A program made the translations under genes and the position numbers. A model generated the notes under the pieces. The model was not told the origin of the DNA and did not search any database. It saw only the letters and a list, made by a program, of their open reading frames with translations. From assembly GCF_000526995.1 (NCBI RefSeq), contig NZ_AZUI01000001.1, forward strand, positions 558,001 through 622,000: a DNA stretch of 64,000 bases, given 5' to 3'. Positions 7,658 through 39,567 of this stretch are shown one piece after another; position 1 is the stretch's first letter; each line of letters begins with the position of its first letter. The stretch is from Lacrimispora indolis DSM 755 (GTDB taxonomy: Bacteria; Bacillota; Clostridia; Lachnospirales; Lachnospiraceae).

Positions 7658-7743
7658 AATTTGATTGAGATTTTATGTTTTTCAAAAATGGAAGCACTTC
7701 ATTCGATCTCTGATACCGGATCACCATGGGGCATGGGAATCGC

Positions 7744-7774
7744 AAAAAGGGCGAAGTCTGAAAAGACTTCGCCC
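7744..7774 (-). terminator. Terminator of the sugar-phosphate operon
   Basis: Perfect 11-bp stem GGGCGAAGTCT / AGACTTCGCCC with a 4-base loop, followed on the minus strand by TTTTT. It lies just past the aldolase stop. It could also weakly serve the convergent cyclase gene. Confidence 0.85.
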
Positions 7775-7785
7775 AAAACAACTGA

Positions 7786-8439
7786 TTACTCACCGAATAC
7801 CGCTTTATAATCTGCCTTGAATTTCTCGATTCCCTGGTCGGTCAGCGGGTGTTTTGTCATCTGCACCAGCACACCGTACGGCACTGTAGCGATATCAGCC
7901 CCTGCCTTTGCGCAGTCGATCACATGGACCGGGTTGCGGACGCTTGCAGCAATGATTTCCGTTTCAATTCCATGTTCTTTAAAAATATCCATGATATCAC
8001 AAATCAGATCAATGCCGGGCATGGAGATATCATCCAGACGGCCTAAAAACGGAGAAACATAGGAAGCGCCTGCGCGGGCGGCCAAAAGCGCCTGGGCAGC
8101 TGAAAACACCAGCGTCACATTGGTCTTGATTCCTTCTCCGGTCAATACCTTAACGGCTTTCAGTCCTTCCACGGTCATGGGGATCTTTACAACCATATTG
8201 GGATGGATCGCTGCGATTTCACGGCCTTCTGCGATCATGCCTTCCGCATCCACTGTGGTTGCCTTTACTTCCCCGCTGATGGGTCCGTCTACGATGGAAG
8301 TGATTTCCTTGATGACCTGGGCAAAGTCACGGCCTTCCTTTGCGATCAGGGAAGGATTGGTGGTAACGCCGCAGATGATGCCCATGTCGTTTGCTTTCTT
8401 TATTTCTTCCGTATTTGCTGTATCGATAAAAAATCTCAT
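7786..8439 (-). CDS. Transaldolase / fructose-6-phosphate aldolase (FSA/TalC type)
   Basis: Class I aldolase of the small transaldolase subfamily, 217 residues (FSA and TalC are 210-220). The Schiff-base lysine is Lys85 in VVKIPMT, and the N-terminus [16 protein letters not shown] is characteristic. Family members either transfer dihydroxyacetone between sugar phosphates or cleave fructose 6-phosphate; sequence alone does not separate these. It is the last gene of an operon with a split transketolase and an RpiB-like isomerase, so it probably finishes conversion of an imported sugar to glycolytic intermediates. Confidence 0.9.
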
Positions 8440-8472
8440 GGCAATTCTCCTTAAAATTTTATTTATTCAAAA

Positions 8473-8847
8473 TTAGCCAACTTTGCAAAATTCAATCTTT
8501 TCCCCATTAGGACCCTGAAAAAGAAAGAAACGGTTGGTGAGAGGTGCAAACATCTGGTTGGATTCTATTCCGTCCGACAAAAGCTTATGTCCCTGAGCTG
8601 AGATTTCCTCATATGCTTCATCCAGATTTTCGCAGGTTAAGGCAATGTGATCGATGTTTCCGATGGGCTTTGCGTCCTGGCGTCTGGGGTAGTATTCAAT
8701 GACACAGGTTCCACACTTCAGCATTCCCCTGATTCCTCCATCCACCAGTCTGGTAAAGCCCAGACTCTCATAAAAAGCTACGGTTGCTTCCGGTTCATCT
8801 GTGGGAATTGCCACATGGGCAACTCCCGATGGTTTATGTTTCAGCAT
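8473..8847 (-). CDS. VOC family protein (glyoxalase/bleomycin resistance fold)
   Basis: Single-domain vicinal-oxygen-chelate protein of 124 residues. It starts with VAHVAIPTDEPEATVAFYES and contains IDHIALTCENLDEA and a C-terminal QGPNGEKIEFCKV; the His and Glu positions could bind a divalent metal. The fold supports glyoxalase, epimerase and dioxygenase chemistry. Its place in the operon, between an RpiB-like isomerase and an aldolase, suggests epimerisation or isomerisation of a sugar-derived keto compound, or methylglyoxal detoxification. The exact reaction is not inferable. Confidence 0.85.
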   Translation of the reverse strand: MLKHKPSGVAHVAIPTDEPEATVAFYESLGFTRLVDGGIRGMLKCGTCVIEYYPRRQDAKPIGNIDHIALTCENLDEAYEEISAQGHKLLSDGIESNQMFAPLTNRFFLFQGPNGEKIEFCKVG

Positions 8848-8857
8848 AAGGAACCTC

Positions 8858-9496
8858 CTATGCCAGCAGGCCCTTTACGTATTCTGCAATGGCTTCATCC
8901 TTGCAGTTTGCAAAGAACAGCTCTCCAAACTTCTCGCCGCCCACGGCGCCCTTTACCAGTTCCTGGTCAAGTCCCTTTAAGCAGGTAAGGATGTCTTTTA
9001 AGTTATTCTCTCTTACCACATCTAAGATCTTTTTATTTCTCTGCTCCGGAACGGCCCTCTCCCTTGGGTAGCCCTGTCCGCTTGCTTCGGAGAATAACTT
9101 TTCAAATGTATATTCCAGATTCAGCTCTGCTCCCCAGCCAAAGCCCTTTGCAAATGGCATTGCAATAGCATTGCCGTCATTGATCTGCGCAAACATGTAG
9201 CCGTCGCTTGGATCGCACACATGGCCGCAGATCACGCCGGGGAAGCTGTTTAATGCCAGCATGGCGCCTTCGCCGGTTCCGCATCCGGTAACCACATAAT
9301 CCGCTGCACCGGAATTTAACAGGATAGCCGCCAGGATTCCGTTCTGTACATAAGTCAGGGAATTGCTGTCCTCTGCAGAATACATGCCATAGTTGTCCAC
9401 CTCATAGCCCTTTGTATCCGCAACCTTCTTTAAGCTGTTGTAAATCAATCCGTTCTTAGCCGCCTGGCTGTTCTCATTAATCAATGCGATTCTCAT
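8858..9496 (-). CDS. RpiB/LacA/LacB-family sugar-phosphate isomerase
   Basis: Cytoplasmic aldose-ketose isomerase, 212 residues. The RpiB core (residues 1-150) includes GCGTGEGAMLALNSFPGV, in which the Cys is the usual catalytic base. A C-terminal extension of about 60 residues makes it longer than ribose-5-phosphate isomerase B (about 150). The family includes isomerases for ribose 5-phosphate, galactose 6-phosphate and tetrulose phosphates. Its stop-proximal neighbours and a 4-bp overlap with the upstream transketolase gene place it firmly in this operon. With no kinase gene in the operon, the phosphorylated substrate must be made elsewhere or the importer brings in a phosphorylated sugar. 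Confidence 0.85.
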   Translation of the reverse strand: MRIALINENSQAAKNGLIYNSLKKVADTKGYEVDNYGMYSAEDSNSLTYVQNGILAAILLNSGAADYVVTGCGTGEGAMLALNSFPGVICGHVCDPSDGYMFAQINDGNAIAMPFAKGFGWGAELNLEYTFEKLFSEASGQGYPRERAVPEQRNKKILDVVRENNLKDILTCLKGLDQELVKGAVGGEKFGELFFANCKDEAIAEYVKGLLA

Positions 9497-10428
9497 GCTT
9501 CCAACACTCCTTTTATTTGATTATATACCTGTTTCTCACTCAGTCCGTATTCCTCCAGAAGCTCTTCCGGCTTTCCGGACTGGCCGAATCGGTCCTGTAC
9601 ACCGATCTTCTTAAAAGTTACGTTACACTTGTTTTCCAGAAGAACTTCGCCAACGGCATCTCCAAGACCGCCGATAATGCTGTGTTCCTCCACTGTGATC
9701 ACATTGCTGCACTTAACAGCATATTTTAAAATGCACTCCCTGTCAATAGGCTTAATGGTATGCATATTGACAACCGTAACAGATTTTCCTTCTGCCTCAA
9801 GCTTTTTTGCACATTCCAGCACAGTAGATACCATGATGCCGCAGGCAAATACCACTGCATCCGTACCTTCTTTTAATACGTTTGCCTTTCCGATCACAAA
9901 CGGCATATCCTCTTCAAATACCGGGCTTGGAAGTCTTGCCAGACGAAGATAAGCCGGTCCTTTCATATCTGCAACAGCCTTTACGGCGCGGTGCGTTTCC
10001 CTGGCATCACAGGGAACCACAACGGTCATACCGGGAATTACCCGCATAAGAGCCATATCTTCAATGGCCTGATGGCTTCCCCCGTCTTCCCCAAGGGTGA
10101 TGCCGGAATGGGTCATGCCAAGCTTTACATTGAAATTTGGATAAGCTACGCCGTTTCTTACCTGCTCATAAGCCCGCCCTGCCCCGAATATGGCAAAGGT
10201 GCTGCAAAAAGGGATATATCCCATGGTAGAAAGGCCTGCACTCATATCAACCATATTCGCTTCTGCTATGCCCGCATTAAAAAACCGTTTCGGGAACTTT
10301 TCTGCAAAGGTGGCAGTCATGGTGGCATGGGCCAGATCCGCATCCATTACAACAACCTTTTCATTTGCCTCGCCAAGTTCAGCCAATGCCTCACCGTATG
10401 CCACTCTAATTGCTTTCATTTCACTCAT
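9493..10428 (-). CDS. Transketolase, C-terminal subunit
   Basis: The pyrimidine-binding and C-terminal domains of a split transketolase (311 residues). Recognisable features are the Glu-containing GIAEANMVDMSAGLS, which activates thiamine diphosphate, and SHQAIEDMALMR near residue 120. With the N-terminal subunit directly upstream (4-bp gap) it forms an active enzyme moving two-carbon units between sugar phosphates. Split transketolases are common in catabolic operons, for example D-apulose-4-phosphate transketolase, so the true substrate may not be xylulose 5-phosphate. Confidence 0.92.
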   Translation of the reverse strand: MSEMKAIRVAYGEALAELGEANEKVVVMDADLAHATMTATFAEKFPKRFFNAGIAEANMVDMSAGLSTMGYIPFCSTFAIFGAGRAYEQVRNGVAYPNFNVKLGMTHSGITLGEDGGSHQAIEDMALMRVIPGMTVVVPCDARETHRAVKAVADMKGPAYLRLARLPSPVFEEDMPFVIGKANVLKEGTDAVVFACGIMVSTVLECAKKLEAEGKSVTVVNMHTIKPIDRECILKYAVKCSNVITVEEHSIIGGLGDAVGEVLLENKCNVTFKKIGVQDRFGQSGKPEELLEEYGLSEKQVYNQIKGVLEA

Positions 10429-27383: not shown

Positions 27384-27417
27384 AAAAAGAAGGCCCCGGC
27401 AAAATTGCCGGGGCCTT
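27384..27417 (-). terminator. Terminator of the nitrogenase-like/importer operon
   Basis: Perfect 13-bp stem (AAGGCCCCGGCAA and its complement) with a 2-base loop, followed on the minus strand by TCTTTTT. It lies about 55 bp after the ABC ATPase stop and closes the operon that starts at the NifH-like gene. Confidence 0.88.
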
Positions 27418-27471
27418 GGTCTGATTTGTGCGGGGATTTTTCAAGGAAAAGCCCGCGCCCACCTCAGCTGC

Positions 27472-28266
27472 TTACGTTAACGCCAGGGCTGTTACGGATT
27501 TAAAGCGGTGGCCTTCCTCTTCTATTTCACTGATCAGGACTTTTACGCCAAATGCCTCTTCCATATGTTCCTTTGTCACCACATCATCCACTTTGCCGAA
27601 TATGCTTTTCCCGCTGCGGTTCAAAATCAGCGCCTTATCAGAGATCTTCAGCGCATGTGCCGGATAATGGGTATTAAAAATACAGGATATGTTCTTTTCA
27701 TCCGCCAGCCGCCGGATGGTATCCAGAATAATCAGCTGGTTTTTAAAGTCCAGATTGCTTTCCGGCTCATCCAGCACCAGCATCCGGGGCTTGGCAGTTA
27801 AGGCCCTGGCAATTAAAACCATCTGCAGCTCTCCGCCGCTGATCCGGCTCACCAGCTTTCCTCTTAAATAATCAATTCCCACACTCCGGATCGCCTCGTC
27901 GGCAATTTCCACATCCGCCTTTTTAGGGCGGCTGAAGTTCCCGATGTGGGCACTGCGCCCCAGTAAAACCATCTCTTCCACCGTATAGGAAAAAAGGGAT
28001 GCTTTTGCCTGAGGGACATATGCAATGGTCTGCCAGATATCTTTTACAGGCATATTTGCCAGACATGTTCCATCCAGATAGCTTCCCCCTGATTTCCATT
28101 TCAGCAGACCCATCATATTTCGAAGCAGTGTGGTTTTTCCCACACCGTTAGGCCCCAGGACTGCCAGAACCTCTCCATCCTGAAGCCGGAATGTAATTTC
28201 TTTTAATATTTCTTCCCCCGCCTTATATCCAAAGCATCCTTTCTTCACTTCAAAAATCACAGCCAT
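27472..28266 (-). CDS. FecE/BtuD-type ABC transporter ATPase
   Basis: ATPase of a type II (BtuCD-like) importer, 264 residues. Walker A is GPNGVGKTT, the Q-loop is near YVPQAKAS, the signature is ISGGELQMV, Walker B is RMLVLDEPESNLD, and the switch His is in NTHYP. The order permease-ATPase and a 10-bp overlap with the permease gene show it belongs to the FecBCD-like set. It is the last gene of the operon beginning with the NifH-like gene. Substrate class: iron chelates, haem, corrinoids, or molybdate/tungstate (MolBCA has this fold). Confidence 0.93.
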   Translation of the reverse strand: MAVIFEVKKGCFGYKAGEEILKEITFRLQDGEVLAVLGPNGVGKTTLLRNMMGLLKWKSGGSYLDGTCLANMPVKDIWQTIAYVPQAKASLFSYTVEEMVLLGRSAHIGNFSRPKKADVEIADEAIRSVGIDYLRGKLVSRISGGELQMVLIARALTAKPRMLVLDEPESNLDFKNQLIILDTIRRLADEKNISCIFNTHYPAHALKISDKALILNRSGKSIFGKVDDVVTKEHMEEAFGVKVLISEIEEEGHRFKSVTALALT

Positions 28267-29273
28267 CCTCCTCCTGTCTTTCTCAGCAATAGAATAAATA
28301 CCGGCGCTCCGATGACTGCTGTCAGGATTGACAAGGGAATTTCAGCAGTGGTCGCAGCCCTGGCAGTGGTATCCATAACCAGCATAAATACTGCGCCCAG
28401 GCTGATGCTGGCCGGAATGACCCGTTCATTATTGCTTCCAAACAGCATCCGGACCCCATGGGGAATTAACAGTCCCACCCACTCAATCCGTCCGCACATG
28501 GAGGCACAGGAAGCCGTAATCAATGCCGCTGCCAGAATAATGATGATGCGAAGCTTTTTTAAGTCAATTCCCATGGATCTTGCCTCATCCTCAGACATTG
28601 ACAGAATATTCAGCCGCCAGCGCAGCAGATAGATCATCAATATCCCGCCGCAGATCAGGGGACCGCCAATGGCCAGACTCTTGTAGGTAATTCCGGCCAT
28701 ACTTCCCAGCAGCCAGTAGGTAATTGTCGGCAGCTGAGACTCCGGATCAGCCACGTATTTAACCAGCGATACCAGAGAAGTAAAAAGAGAAGAAACCGCA
28801 ATTCCCGCCAGAATGATCATAAATGTGGAAGATTGACCTTTGACCTTGCTGATGGAATAAGTGAGCATAATGGCAATCAGGCCAAATACCAGGGCCACCA
28901 GCTGAACCCATAAAAGGCTGTCTGAAAATAAAAGGGCCATTGCCGCACCGAAACATGCTCCCTGTGCCACACCCAGGGTGTCGGGAGTCGCCAGCGCATT
29001 GGAAAATAAGGGCTGAAATGCCGCTCCTGAGACAGCCAGGCCCGCTCCGCAAAGAACCGCCAGAATGATCCTCGGCAGCCGGATATTGAATACAACACTG
29101 TATGCCTGGGGCTCAATTGTCTCCTTTCCGGAAACAGCATAGGTATATAACAGCTTACAAATGTCAATCAGGTTAAAAGAATAGCGTCCGATGCCCAGAC
29201 AGATCAGGGCCGTTAATACCGGAGCCAGGATCAGTAAGATCCTGATTCCGGCTCCATATCGTTTCATCAACAT
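28257..29273 (-). CDS. FecCD/BtuC-type ABC transporter permease
   Basis: Permease with about ten hydrophobic segments, 338 residues. Family landmarks are RLPRIILAVLCGAGLAVSGA near residue 70, GVAQGACFGAAMALLF, and the C-terminal coupling helix region GRIEWVGLLIPHGVRMLFGS. Such permeases act as homodimers with the ATPase encoded next to it and take up large or chelated metal compounds. It starts 2 bp after the binding-protein stop, so the importer genes are tightly linked to the nitrogenase-like genes. Confidence 0.94.
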   Translation of the reverse strand: MLMKRYGAGIRILLILAPVLTALICLGIGRYSFNLIDICKLLYTYAVSGKETIEPQAYSVVFNIRLPRIILAVLCGAGLAVSGAAFQPLFSNALATPDTLGVAQGACFGAAMALLFSDSLLWVQLVALVFGLIAIMLTYSISKVKGQSSTFMIILAGIAVSSLFTSLVSLVKYVADPESQLPTITYWLLGSMAGITYKSLAIGGPLICGGILMIYLLRWRLNILSMSEDEARSMGIDLKKLRIIIILAAALITASCASMCGRIEWVGLLIPHGVRMLFGSNNERVIPASISLGAVFMLVMDTTARAATTAEIPLSILTAVIGAPVFILLLRKTGGGWL

Positions 29274-29275
29274 GC

Positions 29276-30463
29276 TTATACTCCGTCCGCTGCTTCACGG
29301 GGAGGATTGAACATGCCTTCCACCTCTTCATCCGTCAGCTCCACATTATAAAACTTCAGATAAAAATCTTTAATTGTCTGGTTCAAATCAAGATCTGCAA
29401 AAGCTTCCGGGTGATTTTTCTGGGCCATCCAGTAAAGGCACAAGGAAGAGTCAGAGGACGGCGGGAACCAGCGGTACATTCCCAGAGGGAATTTATAAAC
29501 CTTGTGTTCCCGTACGGCCTTAACCGGACTCCAGTCAAACCCTTCAATGCTGTTGTCATAGAAATCCTGAGGCAGGTATGGGCTGAAGTTTGTTACGTAG
29601 ATAATATCCGGATCCCACTCATAGATCTGCTCCATGGTTAAATCCACGCCTGATCCTGGAATATCCTTTGATACGCTGACCGCTCCTGTGGCATCGCACC
29701 AGTACTGTCCGAAGAACTGGTTGCCGGAGGTCTGGAACACCCCGTCTTTATAATGATAGATCATCATCACCTTGGGCTTGTCTTCCTCTTTTACGTCTTT
29801 TAATCGCTTTTCAATATCAGCGGCCACTTCACGTCCGTATTCCGTAATACCAGCCACTTTATCCGGCTCATCAAATACTTCTCCCAGCAGCTCAACCCAT
29901 TTGTTTACAGTTTCCACCGTATTAAACCCGGCTATGGAAGTGCTGAAGCCAACCACCGGAATACCGGTCTTTAACAGCACGTCCCTTTCTTTTGCATTGT
30001 TGGCGTTGCAAAAGATCACATCCGGCTTCAGTTTAATGAGTTCTTCCACATTGATCTCGCCGCCCTGAACAAAGGAAGTATCCACATCCTTTAACTCCGG
30101 AGCCACCTTCATTAAAAGAGAATGTTCTGCCGCACTTTTAGAAGCCGGATGCATGCCCACCAGCTTGGCTCCTGAACCCTGATACAATACATAAACCGAT
30201 GGCAGCGGCCACAAGGATGCAATTGCCACACGTTCAATATCAGCAGGTATCACCACTTCGTTGCCGCCATGGTCAATGATCGTTTTGGTCTCTCCGGCTG
30301 CCGGTGTGGTTTCCTCTTCTTTCCCTGCCTCGGGTGCGGTTTCTGCTGCGGCCGCCTCTGTGCCTGGTGCCGTAGTCTCTGTGGAAGCCGTCTTGGCCGT
30401 GCAGCCGGATAATACGGCCATACACAGAACCAGGCTTAATACACGCGTTACTGTCTTTTTCAT
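29276..30463 (-). CDS. Metal-chelate-type substrate-binding lipoprotein (FecB/BtuF fold)
   Basis: Lipid-anchored binding protein of 395 residues for the BtuCD-type importer. The signal peptide MKKTVTRVLSLVLCMAVLSG ends in a lipobox Cys; a Thr/Glu/Ala linker follows (to about residue 60), then a helical-backbone type III binding fold (IDHGGNEVVIPADIERVAIA, INVEELIKLKPDVIFCNANN, FGQYWCDATGAVSVSKDIPG, YRWFPPSSDSSLCLYWMAQK). The start at 30463 has AGGGAGAA upstream; an in-frame extension to 30490 is less likely. The aromatic PxxYRWFPP segment may shape the ligand site. Ligand unknown: iron chelate, corrinoid/tetrapyrrole or oxyanion. Confidence 0.92.
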   Translation of the reverse strand: MKKTVTRVLSLVLCMAVLSGCTAKTASTETTAPGTEAAAAETAPEAGKEEETTPAAGETKTIIDHGGNEVVIPADIERVAIASLWPLPSVYVLYQGSGAKLVGMHPASKSAAEHSLLMKVAPELKDVDTSFVQGGEINVEELIKLKPDVIFCNANNAKERDVLLKTGIPVVGFSTSIAGFNTVETVNKWVELLGEVFDEPDKVAGITEYGREVAADIEKRLKDVKEEDKPKVMMIYHYKDGVFQTSGNQFFGQYWCDATGAVSVSKDIPGSGVDLTMEQIYEWDPDIIYVTNFSPYLPQDFYDNSIEGFDWSPVKAVREHKVYKFPLGMYRWFPPSSDSSLCLYWMAQKNHPEAFADLDLNQTIKDFYLKFYNVELTDEEVEGMFNPPREAADGV

Positions 30464-30514
30464 TTTTTCAATTCTCCCTTCTTGTATCATGAACCTGTGG
30501 TTCCTGCTTGGAAT

Positions 30515-31690
30515 TCAACCTTCGAGCCCATGAGCAAATGAGCTTTCAGTCAATCGTCCTCCCATCAGCTGCGGCACATGGTCCCAGCATACCTTGCTGG
30601 AAACCGCCACATGAGGCAGATCCATGAATTGTATCTTTTCTTTTTCCCGGATCAGCTGCCAGATCAGCGGATCAGCTATAATGGTATGGTATTTTCCGCT
30701 GTTCACCAGTTTCCGGATATCGCTTTCGCTGTTTAATGCAAGGCTGTCCTGCCGGTACACTCCCTGTGTCCTACCAAATAAAACAGCCGGCTGAATTCCC
30801 CTTATTCCCCTCTCTTCTCGGAAATAAAACGCCAGTGACCGGATCAACACCTCTTCACCGATCATCAGAACCTGACTTGTTTCTTCTCCATCCGTTTCCA
30901 GTGCCCGCTCCCGTTTGTCTGCAATTGTTTCTTTCAGCATTCCGGCCAGACGGTCAGCTCCTGATTCCCCAACAGGCACTCCCGCCACGTAAGGAATCTG
31001 ATACCGTTTTTTCATATATTCTGCCAGGCCCAGCCCGCTTTTTGACACCACCAGGTTTACACCGGCAGACGGTGCCTGGCAAACCTTATGGAAATCAGAT
31101 ATCATGGAAAAATCAGCCTGAATGGTAAGACCCCGTTTCTCCAGCTCGCCGATTAAGTCAGCCGCATTGCTGTTGTTGGAAAAATCAAGGGGTGTCAGTC
31201 CCAGAATATTGACACGGTTCCCGGACGGGCAAGCTGCCTGGGGCGGCGGAAAGAACTTTTTCCCAAAAGCTATGTAAGCATCAGAAATCCCTTTATCATA
31301 GTAATGCAAACCGGTTGTGGCAAGTCCCATGGAAGGAATCCCCGTACGTTCTTCCAGCTCTGCCGCAATTCCTTCTAAATCAGTACCAATGACCATGGGA
31401 GCAGGGCTTCCCAGAAAGCAAATAAAATTCGGCTTTAAATCATTTGCGGCATTTTCTATCTTTTGTATAAATTTTTCATCATTGCCAAGGATCGCATCCA
31501 TTTCCCTGAGTCCTGAACAGTACACCAGACTGCGTGAATCATACCATCTCGGTTCATCATAGCCGGTATAATTTCCTGTACAGCCGGAAGCATCATGAAT
31601 CACCAGTAAGCCGCCAAGGGCAAACAGTGCGGAACATACACCGGAATAATCAGGAGCAAAGGGAGGCAGTTGTATCGAAAGTTTATGCAT
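30515..31690 (-). CDS. Nitrogenase component 1-like subunit (NifK/NifE-like), 391 residues
   Basis: Member of the nitrogenase component 1 family (PF00148), one of two in the operon. Residues lining the P-cluster position can be followed: Cys19 (GVCSALFALGG), Cys37 (HDASGCTGNY), and SPAPMVIGTD at 95-104 where NifD has CPxxLIGDD, so the third Cys is Ser95. Further Cys are at 58 and 91. At 391 residues it is shorter than NifD/NifK (about 490-520) and close to the dark-operative reductase and CfbD-type proteins. No clear equivalent of the FeMo-cofactor Cys/His pair is seen. It overlaps the companion gene by one base (TAATG). Likely half of an Fe-S reductase that accepts electrons from the NifH-like protein; substrate unknown. 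Confidence 0.85.
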   Translation of the reverse strand: MHKLSIQLPPFAPDYSGVCSALFALGGLLVIHDASGCTGNYTGYDEPRWYDSRSLVYCSGLREMDAILGNDEKFIQKIENAANDLKPNFICFLGSPAPMVIGTDLEGIAAELEERTGIPSMGLATTGLHYYDKGISDAYIAFGKKFFPPPQAACPSGNRVNILGLTPLDFSNNSNAADLIGELEKRGLTIQADFSMISDFHKVCQAPSAGVNLVVSKSGLGLAEYMKKRYQIPYVAGVPVGESGADRLAGMLKETIADKRERALETDGEETSQVLMIGEEVLIRSLAFYFREERGIRGIQPAVLFGRTQGVYRQDSLALNSESDIRKLVNSGKYHTIIADPLIWQLIREKEKIQFMDLPHVAVSSKVCWDHVPQLMGGRLTESSFAHGLEG

Positions 31691-32949
31691 TATATCACCA
31701 ACCCATAATTTTTTATCAGCGTTTCTAGATCTTCTTCCCTTTGAACCCCATGGACGATTCCTTCCATCAACCGGACCAAACCGTCAAATCCAAAGTTCCC
31801 TTCATTGTTTACCAGACCATACACATGGCGGGCACGGGTAATATAGGCTGCTTCAAAGCCAATGGCAAGGCTGTCCTTTGGAAATGTGCCGATCTTAGTG
31901 GGAATATCATGTGCAATGGGATTTAAAACCTGAATTTCCGGCATATGTTCATGGATCCAGTCTGCATGTTCCTTTTCTGCTCCCTGGGCTGTCTGGGCAA
32001 AAATGCCGGCAACATAGAATCCTGCCTCACACAATGCCCTGGCTGCTGCAAAAGGAAAAACCACAGCCGTGTAATCAATAAAAACCGGTCTGTCCCCCAC
32101 TGCCTCTCTCGCTTCCCTGACAGCCTGCCTTGCCTTCCTTTGGTATTGTTCCAGATCAAACTTGACCTCCTCTTTGTCAGCCAGCTTTTCCATCAGCCGT
32201 TTATAGGTGTTCAGAATATCTTCTTCCCGATAGTTAGTGTAGACTAACTCAAAATCAATATTCAGCCGGGCTTTCATGTCCATGGCCGCTTTCACTGCCG
32301 GAGGGGCTACCACCAGGTTCCATTTTGCAGCCGCCATATGCTGGTATGCTTCAAAGGTTTCAAACTGTGCAATATGGTTGACTTGTTCCACTCCCAGGGC
32401 CTGTAAAAACCCAAACAATTCGGATTCCGGCCTGATCTGCACCGGATTTCCAATGAGGTTTACCTGGCTTTTTTTACTTTCCCGCGGTTCCAGGAGGCCG
32501 TACATTTTCCGGCGGATATTGACCGGCGGCGGATTATCCGTATCCAGGGTGATGGGATTCATATGGCAGAAAGTAAACCGGACATCTTCGTGCTGTTCCC
32601 TCAGCACCTCCAGTATGGACTCATGGTCTGTTCCCAGTAAGTCATCCAGGCAGCTGACAAAGATCATCAGAACCTTAGGCCGTTTCTCCAGAGTATCTAA
32701 AAGCTCTGCCACCGCTTCCGGAATCAGATCCTCGTATCCTCCCGATACAATGTCACTTTCATCAATGTATAAATAGGAAAGGCGGTCTTTTAAACCATGG
32801 CCGATTGCTCCCAGGGCCCCATGCCTTCCACAGGCAAAAGGGCAGACAAACAGCTGGTAACTTTCCGGAACCAGCATCCCCAGACGGACTACTCCCCACC
32901 CGCCGTGGGCAGGCGATGTATAATGAAGCGTACTGCAATCAATTTTCAT
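31690..32949 (-). CDS. Nitrogenase component 1-like subunit (NifD-like), 419 residues
   Basis: Second component 1-like subunit. I start it at the ATG at 32949, which has GGAGGTG upstream and overlaps the NifH-like gene by 11 bp; the frame is open to 33141 but the extra 64 residues only shadow that gene. Candidate cluster ligands are Cys36 and Cys40 ([12 protein letters not shown]) and Cys100 in [11 protein letters not shown], which matches the third P-cluster Cys of NifD (CPxxLIGDD). Cys5 is a further candidate. So this subunit keeps the third Cys that its partner has lost, suggesting an asymmetric interface cluster held by both chains, as in the protochlorophyllide and chlorophyllide reductases. 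No FeMo-cofactor pocket is recognised. Downstream genes import an unknown compound. Confidence 0.85.
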
Positions 32950-33700
32950 GACCACACACCTCCAGAATGGATTTGGCCAGGGAACGGTATTCTCCTGCCA
33001 TGGCACTGTGGGGAAATGCTTCCACCACTGTTTTTTTCTGGTTCTCTGCCTCCTGTACCACTCCATCCCTGGGCAGAATCCGCACGATCTTCCCGCCGCT
33101 TTCCTCTGCAAATTCTGATACCAGTTCCTGCTCTTTTTCAATATTCCTTGAGTTTAAAATGATACCTGAATACCGGGCATATCCCCTCTTTGAAAACTGT
33201 CCCACAGCACTGACAATATTGGCAGCCGCATAAAGGGACATCTTCTCACCCGAAGTAACGACAAATACATGCTCCGCATAGCCGCCGCGAATGGGCATGG
33301 CGAAGCCTCCGCATACCACATCGCCAAGAACATCATAAAGTACGATATCCGGCTTGTATATCTCATAAGCATTCAGCGCTTCCAACCGCTCAAAAGCGGT
33401 AATAATCCCCCGCCCGGCACAGCCTATTCCTGGAGTCGGGCCTCCGGCTTCCACACATAACACCCCGTTGTAGCCGGGAAATACAATATCCGAAAGCTCC
33501 ACATGATCAGACTTTTCCTTAATCGCATCCAAAACCGTCTTTACCGGCTTTCCCAATGTGAGATTCTGTGTGGAGTCTGCTTTCGGGTCACATCCGATCT
33601 GCATCACCCGGTATCCCATGTCAGACAATGCTGCTGCCAGGTTTGAGGTGGTCGTGCTCTTGCCAATTCCTCCCTTCCCGTATACCGCTATTTTTAACAT
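32939..33700 (-). CDS. NifH/BchL/CfbC-like ATP-dependent reductase (Fe protein)
   Basis: Homodimeric Fe protein that couples ATP hydrolysis to low-potential electron transfer into the component 1-like partner. At 253 residues it is a little shorter than NifH (about 275-295). Walker A is GKGGIGKST (8-16), switch I is CDPKADST (37-44), and the two cluster ligands are Cys94 in PGIGCAGRG and Cys130 in [16 protein letters not shown], so the bridging [4Fe-4S] site is complete. Arg97 matches the Arg that is ADP-ribosylated in NifH. First gene of the operon with both component 1-like subunits and the importer. All functional residues look intact, so the system should be active. Confidence 0.93.
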
Positions 33701-33723
33701 ATATAACTCTCCTTAGGTCGCTT

Positions 33724-33741
33724 TTAGTTAGTATCAACTAA
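33724..33741. promoter_or_regulatory. Candidate Crp/Fnr-type operator before the NifH-like gene
   Basis: TTAGTTAGTATCAACTAA is a perfect 6+6+6 inverted repeat (TTAGTT/AACTAA), 24 bp upstream of the NifH-like start and directly after the Crp/Fnr gene. Its layout resembles Crp/Fnr family sites. Binding by the adjacent regulator is inference. Confidence 0.55.
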
Positions 33742-33751
33742 CCTCTGCATA

Positions 33752-34438
33752 CTAACATGAAGCTGCCTGGGAGTCAAGATGATGCCTGGAAAACTGTCTC
33801 AAATGAGATACATCCCTGATCACAATCTTCTGATCCGTATACTCAATGGCTTTTGAAAGCCGGAAGCTGTCCAGCTCCCGATACAGGGTTGCACGGCTGA
33901 TTCCCAGGCTGGAGCACAACCCGGTCTTGCCTGTGCGCAGGAAAATCACCCCATTGCTGTTGGCGTGACTCACTAAATAATCTGCCAGGCGGGCCTTTGC
34001 AGAGGTGGTATTAAGCATTTCGATTTTCTTCTGCAGAAACAGGATTTTTTTGTTAAAGATCGTCATGATATGAAGCATCAGCTCCGGATCCCTTTTAAAC
34101 ACCTTCAAAAGTTCGCTTTTCTTTATGTACAGTACGGTTGTGTGGCACATGCACTGGAGTGTGTTGGGCATCTCGGCATGAGTAAAAATCGTGCAGATGC
34201 CGAAACAGTCTTTGGGATAAATCCGTTTCATGGTTAATTCCTTCCCGTCCTGAGTAACCGATGAAACAGCGATCTCGCCTGTTACCACAATGCCGATGGA
34301 TTTCTCTCCCATGTAGCGGTTGCTCACAAGGCTGCCTTTTTTTAAGCTGCACATACCAAACTCCATGTCCCCCACATTCATTCCCCGGAATAATTCTGTG
34401 GTTTTTAAAAATTCCAGGTCCTTTTCCCGTTGTGTCAC
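33752..34438 (-). CDS. Crp/Fnr-family transcriptional regulator
   Basis: Regulator of 228 residues: an N-terminal cyclic-nucleotide-type beta domain (residues 10-110), dimer helix, and C-terminal winged helix (TGLCSSLGISRATLYRELDS). The start is taken as GTG at 34438 because AAGGAGG lies 8 bases before it; upstream ATGs at 34459 and 34489 would put that site inside the gene. The sensor domain is unusually rich in Cys/His: Cys78-x3-Cys82, His87, then Cys96-x-Cys98-His99. These could bind a metal, Fe-S cluster or haem. The N-terminal Cys set of true FNR is absent. Position between the NifH-like operon and the divergent GTPase cassette, plus a palindrome at the NifH-like promoter, makes it the likely local controller. 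Confidence 0.88.
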   Translation of the reverse strand: MTQREKDLEFLKTTELFRGMNVGDMEFGMCSLKKGSLVSNRYMGEKSIGIVVTGEIAVSSVTQDGKELTMKRIYPKDCFGICTIFTHAEMPNTLQCMCHTTVLYIKKSELLKVFKRDPELMLHIMTIFNKKILFLQKKIEMLNTTSAKARLADYLVSHANSNGVIFLRTGKTGLCSSLGISRATLYRELDSFRLSKAIEYTDQKIVIRDVSHLRQFSRHHLDSQAASC

Positions 34439-34512
34439 ATGAGACACCTCCTTCTTCATCAGTCTGCTATAATACGTTGGAAATACCATTATTATACAAG
34501 GAGACGGAAAAA
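34439..34512. promoter_or_regulatory. Divergent promoter region of regulator and GTPase cassette
   Basis: Only 74 bp separate the Crp/Fnr gene and the GTPase gene, so both promoters must lie here or overlap the regulator start. TATTAT-like -10 sequences are present on both strands; -35 elements are weak. AAGGAGAC at 34498-34505 is the GTPase ribosome site. Confidence 0.45.
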
Positions 34513-35223
34513 ATGAAAAGTAAAATAATTCTCATTAGCGGCGGCTCTGCCTCCGGCAAAACCCTGGCCGCCACAAATCTGATCCGGCATATTCAGTCCG
34601 CCGGCAAGCGCTCCTCTGTCTGCAAGATCGACTGTCTGCATTCCGATGATCCGGCTGCCTATGAGGCTCTGGGTGTTCCGTTTATACTTGGTCTGTCCGG
34701 TGACATATGCCCGGATCATTTCCTGGTTTCAAATCTGGAGGAAATGATCGCCTGGAATGAACTGCAGGAAACGGAATATTTAATCATCGAAACTGCCGGA
34801 CTTTGTAACCGCTGTTCCCCTGCCACCGTTCACACGGTCAGCATCTGCGTGACAGATTGTACCAGCAGCCTGCGTTCCCCTAAAAAGCTTGGGCCAATGC
34901 TGACAACCGCCGATATCATTCTCATGACCAAAATCGATATGGTTTCCCAGGCAGAAAAAGAAATTATCCATTATAATATCAGCTCCTTAAATCCAACTGC
35001 TCATATCTTTCCTGTAGACGGATTATCCGGTTACGGCAGCGGACTTCTCTTTCAGTATTTAGAAAGCCTTCCTGAAACGGGCTGGAACAGCAATGATACC
35101 CTGCGTCACACCATGCCTGCCGGTGTCTGCTCTTACTGTGTGGGAGAAAAGCGGATCGGCACCATGTATCAGCATGGCGTTGTGGAAAAAATGGATTTTA
35201 AGGAGGTGCCCCGTGTTTCATGA
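34513..35223 (+). CDS. HypB/UreG/CobW-like metallochaperone GTPase
   Basis: Predicted P-loop GTPase of 236 residues with metal-binding Cys pairs. P-loop GGSASGKT (10-17); IIETAGLCNRCS (91-102), a switch II/Walker B-like segment that includes Cys98-x2-Cys101; MTKID (138-142) as the NKxD-type base-recognition motif; and a C-terminal Cys206-x2-Cys209 (GVCSYCVGEKRIG). HypB and UreG deliver nickel using comparable motifs, and CobW-type proteins handle zinc or cobalt. It is first in a divergent three-gene set between the nitrogenase-like operon and the CooS gene, so it may deliver metal to one of these. The precise family is not certain. Confidence 0.75.
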   Translation: MKSKIILISGGSASGKTLAATNLIRHIQSAGKRSSVCKIDCLHSDDPAAYEALGVPFILGLSGDICPDHFLVSNLEEMIAWNELQETEYLIIETAGLCNRCSPATVHTVSICVTDCTSSLRSPKKLGPMLTTADIILMTKIDMVSQAEKEIIHYNISSLNPTAHIFPVDGLSGYGSGLLFQYLESLPETGWNSNDTLRHTMPAGVCSYCVGEKRIGTMYQHGVVEKMDFKEVPRVS

Positions 35224-35968
35224 ACTGACAATTATACCCGGCAGCAATAAAAACGGACAGCCGGAAGCTTCTTTTCCCTTAACCATGAAGCCTGGACAGC
35301 TGTACGCAGTGGTAGGCCATACCGGTTCAGGAAAAAGCCGGCTGATTCAGGATTTGGAACAGCTGGCCTGCGGCGACACGGTCACCGGACGGCATGTATG
35401 GATCAACGGAAAACTGCCGGAAAGACAAGACCGCTTTCACACATCCAGGCAGCTGATCGCCCATTTAAGCCAGAATATGCGCTTCGTACTGGATGTGACG
35501 GTAGAGGAATTTATCCGAATGCACTGCACCTGCAGGCAGCGGGACTGGCATAGGGTTCTTCCGGAAGTCATTGACCATGCCAATACCATTACTCCGGAAC
35601 ATTTACATAAAGAAGACAGCTTAAATCTTTTAAGCGGAGGCCAAAGCCGCGCCCTGATGATCGCTGATGTGGCCGTTTTGTGCGAAAGTCCCATTGTTCT
35701 GATTGACGAAGTGGAAAATGCCGGCATTCACAAAGAGAAAGCCTTGCATCTGCTGTTAAAAAAGCAGAAACTGGTACTGATCGCCACACACGATCCCCAC
35801 ACAGCCTTAATGAGTGACTGCCGGATCTGTATGAAAAACGGCGGAATACAGTCGGTGATCCAACGAAATGAAAAAGAACAGGAAACCTGGGAACGCCTGC
35901 ATACATACCAGCAATATATTGCAGAAATGCAAAGAAAGATGAGAATCGGTGAATTATGCGTAAAATAA
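35213..35968 (+). CDS. ABC-type ATPase without a permease gene
   Basis: Soluble ATPase of the ABC superfamily, 251 residues. Walker A GHTGSGKS (35-42), signature LSGGQ (140-144), Walker B IVLIDE (161-166) and switch His193 in ATHDP are all present. The start is GTG at 35213, with AGGAGG 6 bases upstream and an 11-bp overlap with the GTPase gene. No membrane permease is encoded in this three-gene unit. It may pair with a permease elsewhere, or act as a soluble ABC protein in cofactor assembly. Two neighbouring Cys (HCTCRQR, about 104-106) could be functional. Confidence 0.82.
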   Translation: MFHELTIIPGSNKNGQPEASFPLTMKPGQLYAVVGHTGSGKSRLIQDLEQLACGDTVTGRHVWINGKLPERQDRFHTSRQLIAHLSQNMRFVLDVTVEEFIRMHCTCRQRDWHRVLPEVIDHANTITPEHLHKEDSLNLLSGGQSRALMIADVAVLCESPIVLIDEVENAGIHKEKALHLLLKKQKLVLIATHDPHTALMSDCRICMKNGGIQSVIQRNEKEQETWERLHTYQQYIAEMQRKMRIGELCVK

Positions 35969-36825
35969 GTATGTACTGGAATAATATCTGTGTCCTCCAC
36001 CGGTATGAAAAGAAACATATAGAAGAAGTGACAGCCCTTCTGAAAGAACAGGATATCCAGCTGGAAACAGAATATTTTGGTCTGGGATATCCGAAAAAGC
36101 TGTCAGAAGAGGTAAAAAACACCGGGATCGCACCGGACATCATAGTCTCCACTGATTTAGAGGTGTTTGAGGATCCGGAAATCTATGGTTTGTTTAAAAA
36201 AGAACTGCTGAAAATACAGGACTTATTTCCATTAAAAAAGGAGATCAAAAACACCAATCTCTGTCAGGACAAGCGCCTTCTTCCTTTTTTAGTGATCCCC
36301 CTTGTTATGGTATTCAACAAACAGTTATTGGCCGGTCAGCCTTTGCCTGAGGCCCTTAAAGAGCTGGCCCTATATCCCAAGGCGTTTGGAGGAAAGGCAA
36401 ACTCAGCCGGACGGGGTGTGATAAAGCAGCTCACCTGGCTGTACGGCAAAGAGTTTACGGACTTGTTTTTGGAGAATGCCGCGATCCTGGATATGCCGGT
36501 TCAGTCTCTTCTAAGTGTCCAAAAAGGGCTCACTCCTGCGGCAATCACCCCCTCCATCTTCGCTTTCCGGGCAGATGAAACACTGCTTTCACTCCGGTAT
36601 CCGAAAGAGGGGGCCTTAACCGTTCCTTCTTTTATCGCTGTAAAAAACACATTGTCAGCCGATCTTGCCGGATATATACTTTCAAAGCTGTTTACCGTGA
36701 ACTTTTGTAATTACTTTGCTGAACAAGGGGAAATACAGCCCTGTTTCCAGCAGACCAAGGATGTGAACATGGTGGCTGAACATCAATTCCGCTTTGTTTA
36801 TCCGGACTTTTCTAAAATCACTTAA
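35956..36825 (+). CDS. Periplasmic-binding-protein-like protein without signal peptide
   Basis: Protein of 289 residues resembling type 2 solute-binding proteins of the iron/molybdate kind (PDIIVSTDLEVFEDPEIYGL, FLVIPLVMVFNKQLLAGQPL, LRYPKEGALTVPSFIAVKN), but starting MRKISMYWNNICVLHRYEKK, with no hydrophobic signal and no lipobox. It therefore looks cytoplasmic. It overlaps the ATPase gene by 13 bp. A cytoplasmic binding-protein fold beside a metallochaperone-like GTPase and an orphan ABC ATPase could store or hand over a metal oxyanion or cofactor. No family could be named with confidence. Confidence 0.7.
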   Translation: MRKISMYWNNICVLHRYEKKHIEEVTALLKEQDIQLETEYFGLGYPKKLSEEVKNTGIAPDIIVSTDLEVFEDPEIYGLFKKELLKIQDLFPLKKEIKNTNLCQDKRLLPFLVIPLVMVFNKQLLAGQPLPEALKELALYPKAFGGKANSAGRGVIKQLTWLYGKEFTDLFLENAAILDMPVQSLLSVQKGLTPAAITPSIFAFRADETLLSLRYPKEGALTVPSFIAVKNTLSADLAGYILSKLFTVNFCNYFAEQGEIQPCFQQTKDVNMVAEHQFRFVYPDFSKIT

Positions 36826-36928: not shown

Positions 36929-38842
36929 CTAACTCAGACCCATTTTCTTTCTCTTTTTCATGATATGATCTTCAATATCCTTTGCCACCTGCACCGGGTC
37001 ATCTCCCAAAGCCACTTTTCCTCCGGTTAAGCCCTCCACATCCTCTGTGAATAATTTCACAAGTTCTGGCGCGCCGGTGATAAAGGGTGTTGGGGACAGA
37101 TGGGTATAAGCTCCATATGCTACTGCAAACAAGCCGTCTATGGTCGCCTTTTGTTCCATCCATTCCGGCGCTGTTACCGCAATCGGCAGATCGGAAATGT
37201 CAGCATCTAAATGATCAGCCAGGGCCGTTACAAGCATTGACATCCTTCCTGTATCCGTACAGGTTCCAAAGCTTAACACCGGGGGGATCCCAAGTGCTCT
37301 GCACACTCCCTGCAAGCCTTCTCCTGCCTGATCAATGGCATCTAAATTGCACATTCCAGCAACTTCCAGCCCATGGTTTCCACAGCCTCCTGCCACCACC
37401 AGGATGTCCTTTTTAATCAGTTCCTTTGCTAAATTCACCGTATTCCAATCCTGGGGTCCGTTTCTTAATGTGGAGCAGTTAGCTAAGGCCACAATTCCCT
37501 TTAACTGGCCTTTTGCAATCACATCCACCAGATTATTTAAATCATTTCCTATAGCGCCCAGCACCGCTTCCGTGGAAAATCCGGCTATGGCCTTTTGTTT
37601 GTATTTTGGCACCATTGGCTTGATTTGCTTATGCCGTTTCTTAAAATTATCAATGGCAATGTGGATGCATTTTTCCGCCATCTCTTCTGCCTTCTTGGGA
37701 TAATAAGGCATTTTGTGTTCTGTACCTGGAACTCCGATGATCGTGCTGACACTCACCAGGGCAACCTGGTATTTTTCCGCATACTGGTCAATGGCCGGCG
37801 GAGAACAGTTCTCCTCCATGACAAATGCGTCCACAGTCCCTGTTGCCAAAAACGGCTCAATGGCCAGCCAGTTTCCCATAAGGCCTACAAATACATCATC
37901 CACTTCAAATCTCTGGAGCATTTCCTGCCCTGTTTCAATGGACCCCACAATATGGATCCCCTTTGCCCCGGCCTGTTTGGCCAGATCCTGAAACTGCTGC
38001 TTCCTTGCCATCTGTAAAGCGGCGACTCCGATCCATGGCTGATGTCCGTTAAATGCTATATTTACATAATCAGGGTCCATGATTCCCAAATCCACATCCA
38101 CTTCATGAGGCATGGGCGTTCCGAATAAAATATCCTGGGTCATTTCCAGACCGATTTGAGCGGTGTAGATTGTGGACAAACCTAAGCGCAGGGCTTTTGT
38201 TGCCAGGGAAACGTAATCACCGTCTACGTTAGTCAGACAGCTTGCAATGCTGTTCTGAACTTCATGCTCCACACCGGAGGGGTAAATGTGTAAATCTTCC
38301 CAAACCTTTTTCCGTTTCTTCGGAGAAAAGACCTTCACCATGACGCTTTCCTCATCAGGGCCTAATTTCATTTCCTGATCAAGAAACTCTGCAAGGCAGA
38401 CAGCCATCTGATTCACATCCTGATTTGTGTTGATTCCGGTTTTTTCACACATCCATTTCAACTTATCAACATCCTTGATCTGGAAAACCGTATTGCCCTT
38501 CCCTGTTTCCTTTAAGGTCCGGAAGGCTTCATATGCATGGTGGGCATAGGTGGCTGCTCCCATAATATTTCTCATGAGAAGATTTCTCATGGCCATGGCG
38601 TCCGGGCCGATTCCGCAGACACCCTTTTCCGGCCCCTTCTGCCCGTTGAGCCTGCAGGGTCCATTGGTACATAATTGACAGCTTAATCCCTGCAAACAAA
38701 ATTTGCACCGTATCTTTTCCTGCTCATCCCATCTGGAAAATACACTGGATAAGCCGTCATCCCGTATTCTCACCAGCATCTCTTCTACGGAGTCATGATA
38801 GCTTACCCGTCCTTCTGTTTTTTCTAAAACCGTCTCTGGCAT
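36929..38842 (-). CDS. cooS: CooS-type anaerobic CO dehydrogenase with altered C- and D-cluster ligands
   Basis: Ni,Fe-CO dehydrogenase family protein of 637 residues (start at 38842, GGAGG just upstream). B-cluster ligands Cys55-x2-Cys58-x4-Cys63-x12-Cys76 are intact. For the D cluster the classic second Cys (directly before Cys55) is Ser54, and a CysXXCys pair, Cys46 and Cys49, is found instead. C-cluster positions: His267 (FNGHQPW), Cys346 (MEENCSPP), Cys456 (ANCSTLR), Cys487 (AGGCGNH) and Cys528 (FGTCTD) match the family, and Lys565 is kept. The usual CysCys-Thr-Gly-Asn-Glu segment reads SIETGQE (301-307), so one C-cluster Cys is missing. Activity as a CO dehydrogenase is therefore uncertain. 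No cooC, cooF or acetyl-CoA synthase gene is adjacent. Confidence 0.9.
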   Translation of the reverse strand: MPETVLEKTEGRVSYHDSVEEMLVRIRDDGLSSVFSRWDEQEKIRCKFCLQGLSCQLCTNGPCRLNGQKGPEKGVCGIGPDAMAMRNLLMRNIMGAATYAHHAYEAFRTLKETGKGNTVFQIKDVDKLKWMCEKTGINTNQDVNQMAVCLAEFLDQEMKLGPDEESVMVKVFSPKKRKKVWEDLHIYPSGVEHEVQNSIASCLTNVDGDYVSLATKALRLGLSTIYTAQIGLEMTQDILFGTPMPHEVDVDLGIMDPDYVNIAFNGHQPWIGVAALQMARKQQFQDLAKQAGAKGIHIVGSIETGQEMLQRFEVDDVFVGLMGNWLAIEPFLATGTVDAFVMEENCSPPAIDQYAEKYQVALVSVSTIIGVPGTEHKMPYYPKKAEEMAEKCIHIAIDNFKKRHKQIKPMVPKYKQKAIAGFSTEAVLGAIGNDLNNLVDVIAKGQLKGIVALANCSTLRNGPQDWNTVNLAKELIKKDILVVAGGCGNHGLEVAGMCNLDAIDQAGEGLQGVCRALGIPPVLSFGTCTDTGRMSMLVTALADHLDADISDLPIAVTAPEWMEQKATIDGLFAVAYGAYTHLSPTPFITGAPELVKLFTEDVEGLTGGKVALGDDPVQVAKDIEDHIMKKRKKMGLS

Positions 38843-38943
38843 AATTACCTCCATTAAAATATGATTCAGTCAGTAGTATGCCAAATTTTAGAAATACCTA
38901 TTCTATTTTGATACAATATTCAGCAATCCTTAGGCCTGTCCTC

Positions 38944-39567
38944 TCACCCTCCCAGGGTCACATCCTGCCTGGAATACCATTCAATGGCATCATATACGTG
39001 CTGGGGCGTGAAATCCGGCCAAAAATCATCAACAACATACATATCCGAATAAACGGACTGCACCGGCAAAAAACCGGACAGCCTCCTGCGCCCTCCCCAC
39101 CGGATCACCAGATCGATCCTGGATACATCGGCGGTTTTTAAAGCAGGGCCTATGGCCCCGTCATGAAGTCCCAAATCCCATTCCCAGCTGTAATTCACCA
39201 GAAAATTGATTTTTATCCCGCCGCTTCCGAACTGGTGTCTGCTGGTATAAGGCTTCAGCTCCTCCGGAAACATGGCAGATGTGGTCTTTCCCAAAACCAG
39301 CAATTCCGCATCTTCTTTTGCCAGCTCCTCCACTGCCTTTACACATGCCTTTGAAAAAGCCTCTCTCTGAATGGAAGGGCGCTTTGTATTATCCACCGTA
39401 AACCCATAAAAAGTCATTTCCTTTATTCCCAGCTTCCTGCAAAGATGGTAAAGAGTCATTCCAGGTGATATTCCCCTGTCATACCCGTCCTCTTTTTCCA
39501 TTCCCTTTCCAACGGCCCAGCGGCGGTTTCCGTCTGGTATAATTCCGATGTGCTTTGGAATTCTCAT
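38944..39567 (-). CDS. Cis-prenyltransferase (UppS) paralogue, short and divergent
   Basis: Member of the undecaprenyl diphosphate synthase family, 207 residues against 240-255 for housekeeping UppS. The N-terminal IIPDGNRRWAVGKG keeps the catalytic Asp of DGN. The middle FYGFTVDNTKRPS corresponds to FSTENWxRP. The C-terminal IRWGGRRRLSGFLPVQSVYS corresponds to RxxGExRxSNFLLWQxxY, but the Glu that helps bind magnesium is replaced by Arg. It is separate from the usual uppS-cdsA-dxr setting and follows 100 bp upstream of CooS in the same direction. It may make a shorter or different isoprenoid, or be a non-essential paralogue. Confidence 0.82.
   Translation of the reverse strand: MRIPKHIGIIPDGNRRWAVGKGMEKEDGYDRGISPGMTLYHLCRKLGIKEMTFYGFTVDNTKRPSIQREAFSKACVKAVEELAKEDAELLVLGKTTSAMFPEELKPYTSRHQFGSGGIKINFLVNYSWEWDLGLHDGAIGPALKTADVSRIDLVIRWGGRRRLSGFLPVQSVYSDMYVVDDFWPDFTPQHVYDAIEWYSRQDVTLGG

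Follow-up and report, generated by a model that had tools for sequence, protein, structure and literature searches.

We analysed a 64,000-nucleotide stretch of Lacrimispora indolis DSM 755 (hereafter the window; positions 558001-622000 of a single-contig genome of 6.38 Mb) and in it an operon that joins genes for a nitrogenase-like reductase to those for an importer of the FecBCD/BtuFCD class. Genes were called and scanned against Pfam with curated cut-offs; the scan covered ten genes at 27.4-36.8 kb, seven in the operon and three divergent from it. The seven operon genes all lie on the minus strand, and each scored above its cut-off:

33752..34489, minus strand: Crp/Fnr-type regulator (cNMP_binding and HTH_Crp_2; PF00027 and PF13545), first gene of the operon
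32939..33700, minus strand: NflH, a NifH-like Fe protein of 253 aa with P-loop, Cys94 and Cys130 (PF00142, 316.1 bits)
31690..32949, minus strand: D subunit, component-1-like, 419 aa (PF00148), with C40 and C100 invariant in 80 rows
30515..31690, minus strand: K subunit, component-1-like, 391 aa (PF00148), with C37 invariant in 72 rows and aligned to BchB D36
29276..30490, minus strand: substrate-binding protein, a probable lipoprotein (LSGC seen in the sequence; PF01497)
28257..29273, minus strand: FecCD-family permease (PF01032, 280.1 bits)
27472..28266, minus strand: FecE/BtuD-type ATPase (PF00005, 95.7 bits)
27390..27417, reported on both strands: terminator-like stem of 12 pairs

Gene order, subunit lengths and the closing terminator are as a preliminary description of this DNA had given them, and the Fe-protein motifs it called complete are kept across the family: Cys94 and Cys130 are cysteine in all 76 aligned rows, that of the window among them, and conservation of the P-loop is 97% or more. 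The overlaps of 1-13 bp that it reported between genes occur at three of the six junctions (NflH/D 11 bp, D/K 1 bp, permease/ATPase 10 bp), while the other three have gaps (Crp/NflH 51 bp, K/binding protein 24 bp from the first ATG, binding protein/permease 2 bp). Reductase and importer, which it termed fused, share an operon, with no protein fusion. As in FecBCD/BtuFCD systems, PF01497, PF01032 and PF00005 proteins are encoded together, all above cut-off, which places the importer in that class; the difference is that here they share the operon with a two-component reductase. Crp-type genes also adjoin the cluster in relatives (L012, L013, L017, L023, L026 and L067; L denotes loci and G genomes throughout).

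The operon belongs to a widespread family. The named homologues nearest to D, called nitrogenase component 1 of Lacrimispora, share 87-89% identity with it, and six further entries share 98-100%. With a D profile we found 83 relatives in a collection of species genomes and kept 80 as loci; these do not equal 80 genomes, as at least L017/L057 and L083/L086 share a contig. Among the hosts are Bacillota, Spirochaetota, Synergistota and one Sulfuritalea metagenome-assembled genome; named isolates include Treponema saccharophilum (which carries the genes on plasmid pTS1), Ruminococcus flavefaciens and Tissierella praeacuta. In Lachnospiraceae (150 genomes, one per genus), 15 carried D at E <= 1e-30, eight of them with the importer at the cluster (the window operon, L117-L122 and L125). 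Once the 14 of the 80 loci with <5.5 kb downstream of D had been excluded, binding protein, permease and ATPase were found on the same strand within 7 kb in 62 of the 66 remaining loci; the four without the set are L065 (D broken off), L074, L079 and L080. Among unassigned neighbouring open reading frames (ORFs), 88 of 215 were scanned.

Next to this linkage stands the phylogeny. We built a 119-row tree by a quick method, with Shimodaira-Hasegawa-like approximate likelihood ratio test (SH-aLRT) support and a midpoint root; long Bch branches were flagged, characterised CfbD, Mar and Isr sequences are not among its rows, and MarD is represented by rows of the window genome, one matching 9fmg_A at 233.2 bits. 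The family formed two clades, D with 50 rows (support 98) and K with 49 rows (support 100), which stood apart from NifD/K/E/N, BchN/B, the MarD-like pairs and two further pairs of the window genome. Profile scores were similarly distant. NflH fell below the curated cut-offs of NifH (344.7 of 394.35 bits) and CfbC (341.2 of 402), and D and K reached at most 51.3 bits with the Nif subunit profiles, whose cut-offs are at least 486 (best NifE scores 35.2 for D and 51.3 for K, of 505.1 bits). The window K scored 36.5 of 490.35 with BchB, 19.9 of 419.95 with BchN and 24.5 of 268.4 bits with CfbD; D was not listed for these. A separate clade with constant importer linkage, which the preliminary description had named as support for a new system, was therefore recovered, with the linkage nearly constant; the outcomes it had set against such a system did not appear, as the proteins lie outside the MarD-like clade (CfbD judged by profile cut-off only) and the importer is present in many genomes.

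The metal-ligand residues set the family apart from nitrogenase and may bring it closer to dark-operative protochlorophyllide oxidoreductase (DPOR). The Cys ligand of the iron-molybdenum cofactor (FeMo-co) or L-cluster is missing from all 50 D rows of an alignment whose NifD and NifE rows have it. Cysteines do occur at P-cluster positions (C40 and C100 of D, C37 of K). The interface [4Fe-4S] cluster of DPOR is held by three BchN Cys and one BchB residue; two D Cys and the BchB position align with this pattern, with K having Cys where BchB has Asp. The fold is nearest BchB. Differences from DPOR (BchL/BchNB, ChlL/ChlNB) are the separate D and K clades, the low identity to DPOR subunits (~12-16% over the fold), the Cys-for-Asp exchange in K and the importer in the operon; no chlorophyll genes were found among the ten genes scanned.

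Comparison with other named systems gave the same separation. The family shares with the nitrogenase MoFe protein and NifEN the Fe-protein motifs, the PF00148 fold and the P-cluster-position cysteines, and differs in the lost cofactor cysteine and in Nif scores far below the cut-offs; N2 fixation, which the preliminary description had also discounted, was rejected on profiles, tree and missing cysteine. MarHDK and IsrHDK are likewise unorthodox nitrogenase-like systems of anaerobes, described in the available part of PMC11423573 as group IV enzymes with a radical S-adenosylmethionine (SAM) partner. No gene for such a partner was found among the ten genes scanned, and the MarD-like rows of the window genome lay outside both family clades, in a tree without characterised Mar/Isr; this identity was rejected on profiles, tree and missing cofactor cysteine. 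CfbCD, of coenzyme F430 synthesis, carries out a nitrogenase-like reduction of a metal tetrapyrrole, as this family might, and likewise has no L-cluster; it differs in that CfbD is a homodimer (both from the accessible text of PMC12176620); it was rejected because the window K lies below the CfbD cut-off, the only test applied to CfbD, and NflH lies below that of CfbC. With high confidence we regard the system as real and widespread, and as distinct from those named nitrogenase-like families that were tested. The open-access literature searched, in the portions available, held no description of the clade or of an NflHDK/Hyp route to the H-cluster.

The importer gives some indication of the cargo. 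The closest solved chain to the binding protein is 4ovk (a periplasmic binding protein, ligand not stated; 211.7 bits), followed by HI_1472 (66.5 bits), which we take to be the molybdate/tungstate protein MolA; a nickel-binding protein is also matched, at a low score. A TonB receptor occurs in L068, and a Nik/Opp-type importer adjoins NflHDK in L074, L075, L077, L079 and L087; three of these loci also have NicO-like and MinD/CooC-like genes. Relatives in Acetobacterium are flanked by MoeA-like and DUF364 genes, and DUF364 proteins have been linked with metal transport and chelation (PMC2954201, as far as its available text goes). The gene context points to metal chelates in general, with no single metal indicated. 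In L074 (Lactococcus hodotermopsidis) the run that holds NflHDK and the Nik/Opp-type importer also includes a methyltransferase gene.

A derived branch of the family is probably tied to [FeFe]-hydrogenase maturation. In nine Lachnospiraceae genomes D belongs to a single sub-clade within the family (support 100). In L122 the order is hydE, NflH, D, K, binding protein, FecC, FecE, hydF and TM1266, all in one direction, and in L125 it is FecC, FecE, NflH, D, K, binding protein and hydF; L126, L132 and L133 have NflHDK, hypF, hypD, hypE, a second DK (with H in L126) and hydF, and L123, L124, L127 and L129 hold parts of this NflHDK/hyp/hydF plan. HydG did not exceed its cut-off where NflHDK is interleaved with hypF/hypD/hypE, hydE, hydF and TM1266 (L122, L124, L125, L126, L129, L132, L133). 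All nine branch genomes have [FeFe]-hydrogenase genes and HydE and HydF over the cut-off (HydE of G091 is a partial match, 278.8 bits, and that of HydF in G069 is split in two); no HydG exceeds the cut-off in any of them. HypD is present in seven, with no importer seen at the cluster; the other two have the importer and lack HypD. PF02906 exceeded its cut-off in all 15 Lachnospiraceae carriers, and the four hydrogenases read (G134, G025, G071, G059) contain MPCTAKKFE, EIM[AG]CPGGCVNG and TSCSPGW. In L129, a single ORF of 812 residues (7354-9792) begins like D and is matched by K, a probable D-K fusion adjoining hypF.

Among genomes with HydF, HydG was missing from 10 of 13 family carriers versus 6 of 73 non-carriers (Fisher p 5e-7, kinship ignored). 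These ten are the nine branch genomes and G048, which is importer-linked and lies outside the branch. HypD was found in seven of the ten, with no importer in the NflHDK stretches fetched, and was absent from three, all with importer; the importer was looked for in those stretches only, and L127 and L130 end at or soon after K. PF00374 was absent at E <= 1e-5 from six of the seven HypD-containing carriers, the exception being G069, where a second hypD lies near the NiFe match. In H-cluster maturation HydG supplies CO and CN, and a synthetic diiron complex can bypass HydG and HydE (PMC11736057, available portion); in a survey of acetogens, hydG was not identified by known motifs in five of eight species, and the part of that source available names several scenarios, atypical HydG among them (PMC9431212). 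The derived branch shares with HydEFG maturation its place among hydE, hydF and TM1266 genes, and differs in having NflHDK with importer or Hyp genes instead of HydG. The pattern suggests a HydG-independent route to the H-cluster, and the branch probably serves H-cluster maturation. NflHDK would here act on an iron unit, either taken up from outside or supplied by Hyp proteins; that the cargo is an iron-CN/CO unit is rather unlikely.

Several observations bear against this link. Six HydF-positive, HydG-negative genomes have no family member (G011, G047, G114, G122, G128, G142), and a second profile found none in them either; G047 has a partial HydG (262.4 bits), G011 is 86% complete and G128 69%. 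Conversely, G004 and G059 carry the family with no HydE, HydF or HydG over the cut-off, and the nine branch genomes may represent one recruitment event. G059, reported as 99% complete, has five PF02906 matches (best 345.6 bits), a window-type NflHDK-importer set (L117, L144) and no HypD at E <= 1e-20. The window genome itself has HydG (4421788-4423197, 930.1 bits), HydF and HydE. Among the hosts of 20 other window-type loci, 8 have HydG, 9 HydF and 11 neither (over the cut-off; genome completeness not stated), the last group including Lactococcus hodotermopsidis and Treponema, and HydG is found in three of the six Lachnospiraceae hosts with importer-linked D outside the branch (G000, G004, G048, G059, G072, G143). 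Universal replacement of HydG, the window type included, was thus rejected: because the window genome has HydG and 11 of the 20 hosts have neither HydF nor HydG, the function of the window type must be wider, with H-cluster work a later recruitment.

On the other side of the window operon, divergent genes start 23 bp from the Crp ORF as listed:

34513..35223, plus strand: HypB/CobW-like GTPase (named HypBl), probable partner (PF02492, 38.6 bits, cut-off 20.7, on a longer ORF; start read from the sequence)
35093..35968, plus strand: ATP-binding cassette (ABC) ATPase with no adjoining permease gene, probable partner; the true start is probably further downstream (PF00005, 54.3 bits)
35956..36825, plus strand: SBP_bac_6-like protein with no signal peptide evident by eye, probable partner (PF13343, 44.1 bits)

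HypBl adjoins the cluster in the window and in nine of the 80 loci (L013, L023, L032, L033, L034, L036, L052, L062 and, in part, L073). The ABC gene is linked to HypBl in relatives, and the SBP_bac_6 gene is linked in L013, L023, L034, L052 and L062, with a PF13343 protein also after the ABC gene in L032. Because the trio recurs, whole or in part and in several orientations, beside the cluster in these nine loci, it is a probable, though optional, partner of the operon. A carbon monoxide dehydrogenase (CODH) gene follows at 36929-38854 (TIGR01702, 864.3 bits). A link between clade-B CODH and NitT-TauT (PMC6344411 and PMC13056359, in their accessible parts) suggested it as a further partner; this was rejected, since none of the 98 related loci that were scanned has a CODH-like ORF above 60 bits. 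The L032 ABC protein has ~100 extra N-terminal residues, with no Pfam match in that stretch. Beyond the CODH gene, a UppS-like ORF of 207 aa (38944-39567; TIGR00055, 104.2 of 109.55, just below cut-off, in two stretches) looks internally shortened.

What does the operon do? There is about an even chance that it encodes an importer-coupled, DPOR-like (BchLNB-like) reductase for a metal chelate, and we judge it equally balanced that the system reduces what it imports. Observed in its favour are the conservation of the operon, the separate D and K clades, the lost cofactor cysteine, a BchNB-like arrangement of cluster ligands and the linkage to the importer. The binding protein and FecCD/FecE would bring in a metal complex, and NflH would use ATP to pass electrons one at a time to a single [4Fe-4S] cluster between D and K. 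Reduction of the complex would take place in the cavity where nitrogenase binds FeMo-co and DPOR binds protochlorophyllide, so that the metal might be released or converted, or a low-valent metal unit made for cofactor assembly. In the derived Lachnospiraceae branch an enzyme of this kind may have taken over from HydG in the maturation of [FeFe]-hydrogenase, using a metal unit that is imported or Hyp-made. ATP-driven reduction of a metal complex is, we infer, what unites the family. Each nitrogenase-like reductase characterised so far has broadened the known scope of low-potential biological reduction, and the clade's own importer makes the substrate findable. The hydrogenase-linked branch offers a direct test of H-cluster assembly in bacteria with HydE and HydF and no HydG; that link, if proved, would be a more striking discovery than the reductase family itself. 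Neither it nor the divergent genes at 34.5-36.8 kb nor the genome's own nif-type genes were foreseen in the preliminary description.

Other results weigh against a DPOR-like chelate reductase. The third BchN-type Cys has no strictly conserved D equivalent, C5 of D being Cys in 70% of 80 rows, and the D model is tied between BchN and the Fe-nitrogenase K chain. Tetrapyrrole reduction would be suggested by the fold and the ligand pattern and by nothing else, and the hydrogenase-linked branch suggests an iron-CN/CO unit; as this is no tetrapyrrole, a single class of substrate may not cover all members of the family. The similarities of the binding protein single out no ligand. G000 and G004, outside the ten HydG-lacking HydF carriers, have importer and HypD together, both with NiFe-hydrogenase matches. 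Finally, Rfam gave no match at gathering score, either in the window or in the 16 loci (of 80) compared with it, and therefore no riboswitch that points to a named cofactor; riboswitch control was rejected on this result.

A somewhat unlikely alternative is that NflHDK is a metallocofactor maturase, which reduces no nutrient and instead builds or activates a metal site. That site would be the H-cluster for the derived branch and perhaps a nickel site for the window branch, which has the HypB-like GTPase and the nearby CODH; the importer would supply a metal or a ready metal unit. The runs of NflHDK with hydE/hydF/TM1266 (L122), hydF (L125) and hypF-hypD-hypE-hydF (L126, L132, L133), the nine branch genomes with HydE and HydF and no HydG, the skewed HydG loss, and HypBl and CODH beside the operon favour it. 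It is opposed by the 11 of 20 window-type hosts without HydF and HydG and by HydG in the window genome; given the 98 CODH-free loci, the CODH neighbour may be there by chance.

Less probable still is salvage of organometallic cofactor parts. Here the importer would bring in a ready-made metal complex (in some hosts an Fe unit with CN/CO shed by other microbes), which NflHDK would reduce or trim to a usable synthon. Lachnospiraceae without HydG would then feed HydE and HydF either from the imported unit or from the Fe(CN)2CO unit of HypCDEF, a tyrosine- and HydG-independent H-cluster pathway, and the window operon would be another import-and-reduce system of this family, with a related metal complex as its target.

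We consider it improbable that the imported cargo is a metal (iron, nickel, molybdate or tungstate) needed by the reductase itself, with the substrate entering otherwise. The low-scoring resemblances of the binding protein to HI_1472 and the nickel-binding protein and the MoeA-like genes of Acetobacterium would suit this. However, the ligand for a Mo-containing cofactor is not kept, a [4Fe-4S] enzyme needs only iron, and metal supply leaves unexplained why importer and HypD exclude each other in the ten HydF-positive, HydG-negative hosts. The preliminary description had left both courses open; because of the missing FeMo-co-type ligand and this exclusion, import of a compound that is then reduced is better supported, and import of metal for the reductase is less likely. 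A reductase of small molecules in the Mar/Isr manner (cyanide, CO2 to CO, methylthio compounds or isethionate) is very improbable: the nitrogenase-like fold and Fe protein would allow it and a CO or CN role could suit the hydrogenase-linked branch, but the ten genes scanned include no radical SAM partner of the Mar/Isr kind, the cofactor cysteine is absent, and a chelate-type importer fits such substrates poorly.

The preliminary description also stated that nitrogenase cofactor genes are lacking, which holds locally and not for the genome. The window genome has 16 PF00148 matches, of which the window pair scores lowest. The best four, at 5.956-5.962 Mb, fall in the tree with NifD, K, E and N (the N row is the first 440 residues of a 906-aa ORF); nif-type genes are thus present elsewhere in this host, and the window operon is of another kind. 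At 4.234-4.246 Mb (L090) the D protein is nearest a solved methylthio-alkane reductase (233.2 bits to 9fmg_A). Two more H-D-K sets, at 0.97 Mb (L092) and 3.67 Mb (L093), branch separately in the tree; L092 has two FecC-like permeases and an ATPase before H and, after K, genes for threonine dehydrogenase and glycine C-acetyltransferase.

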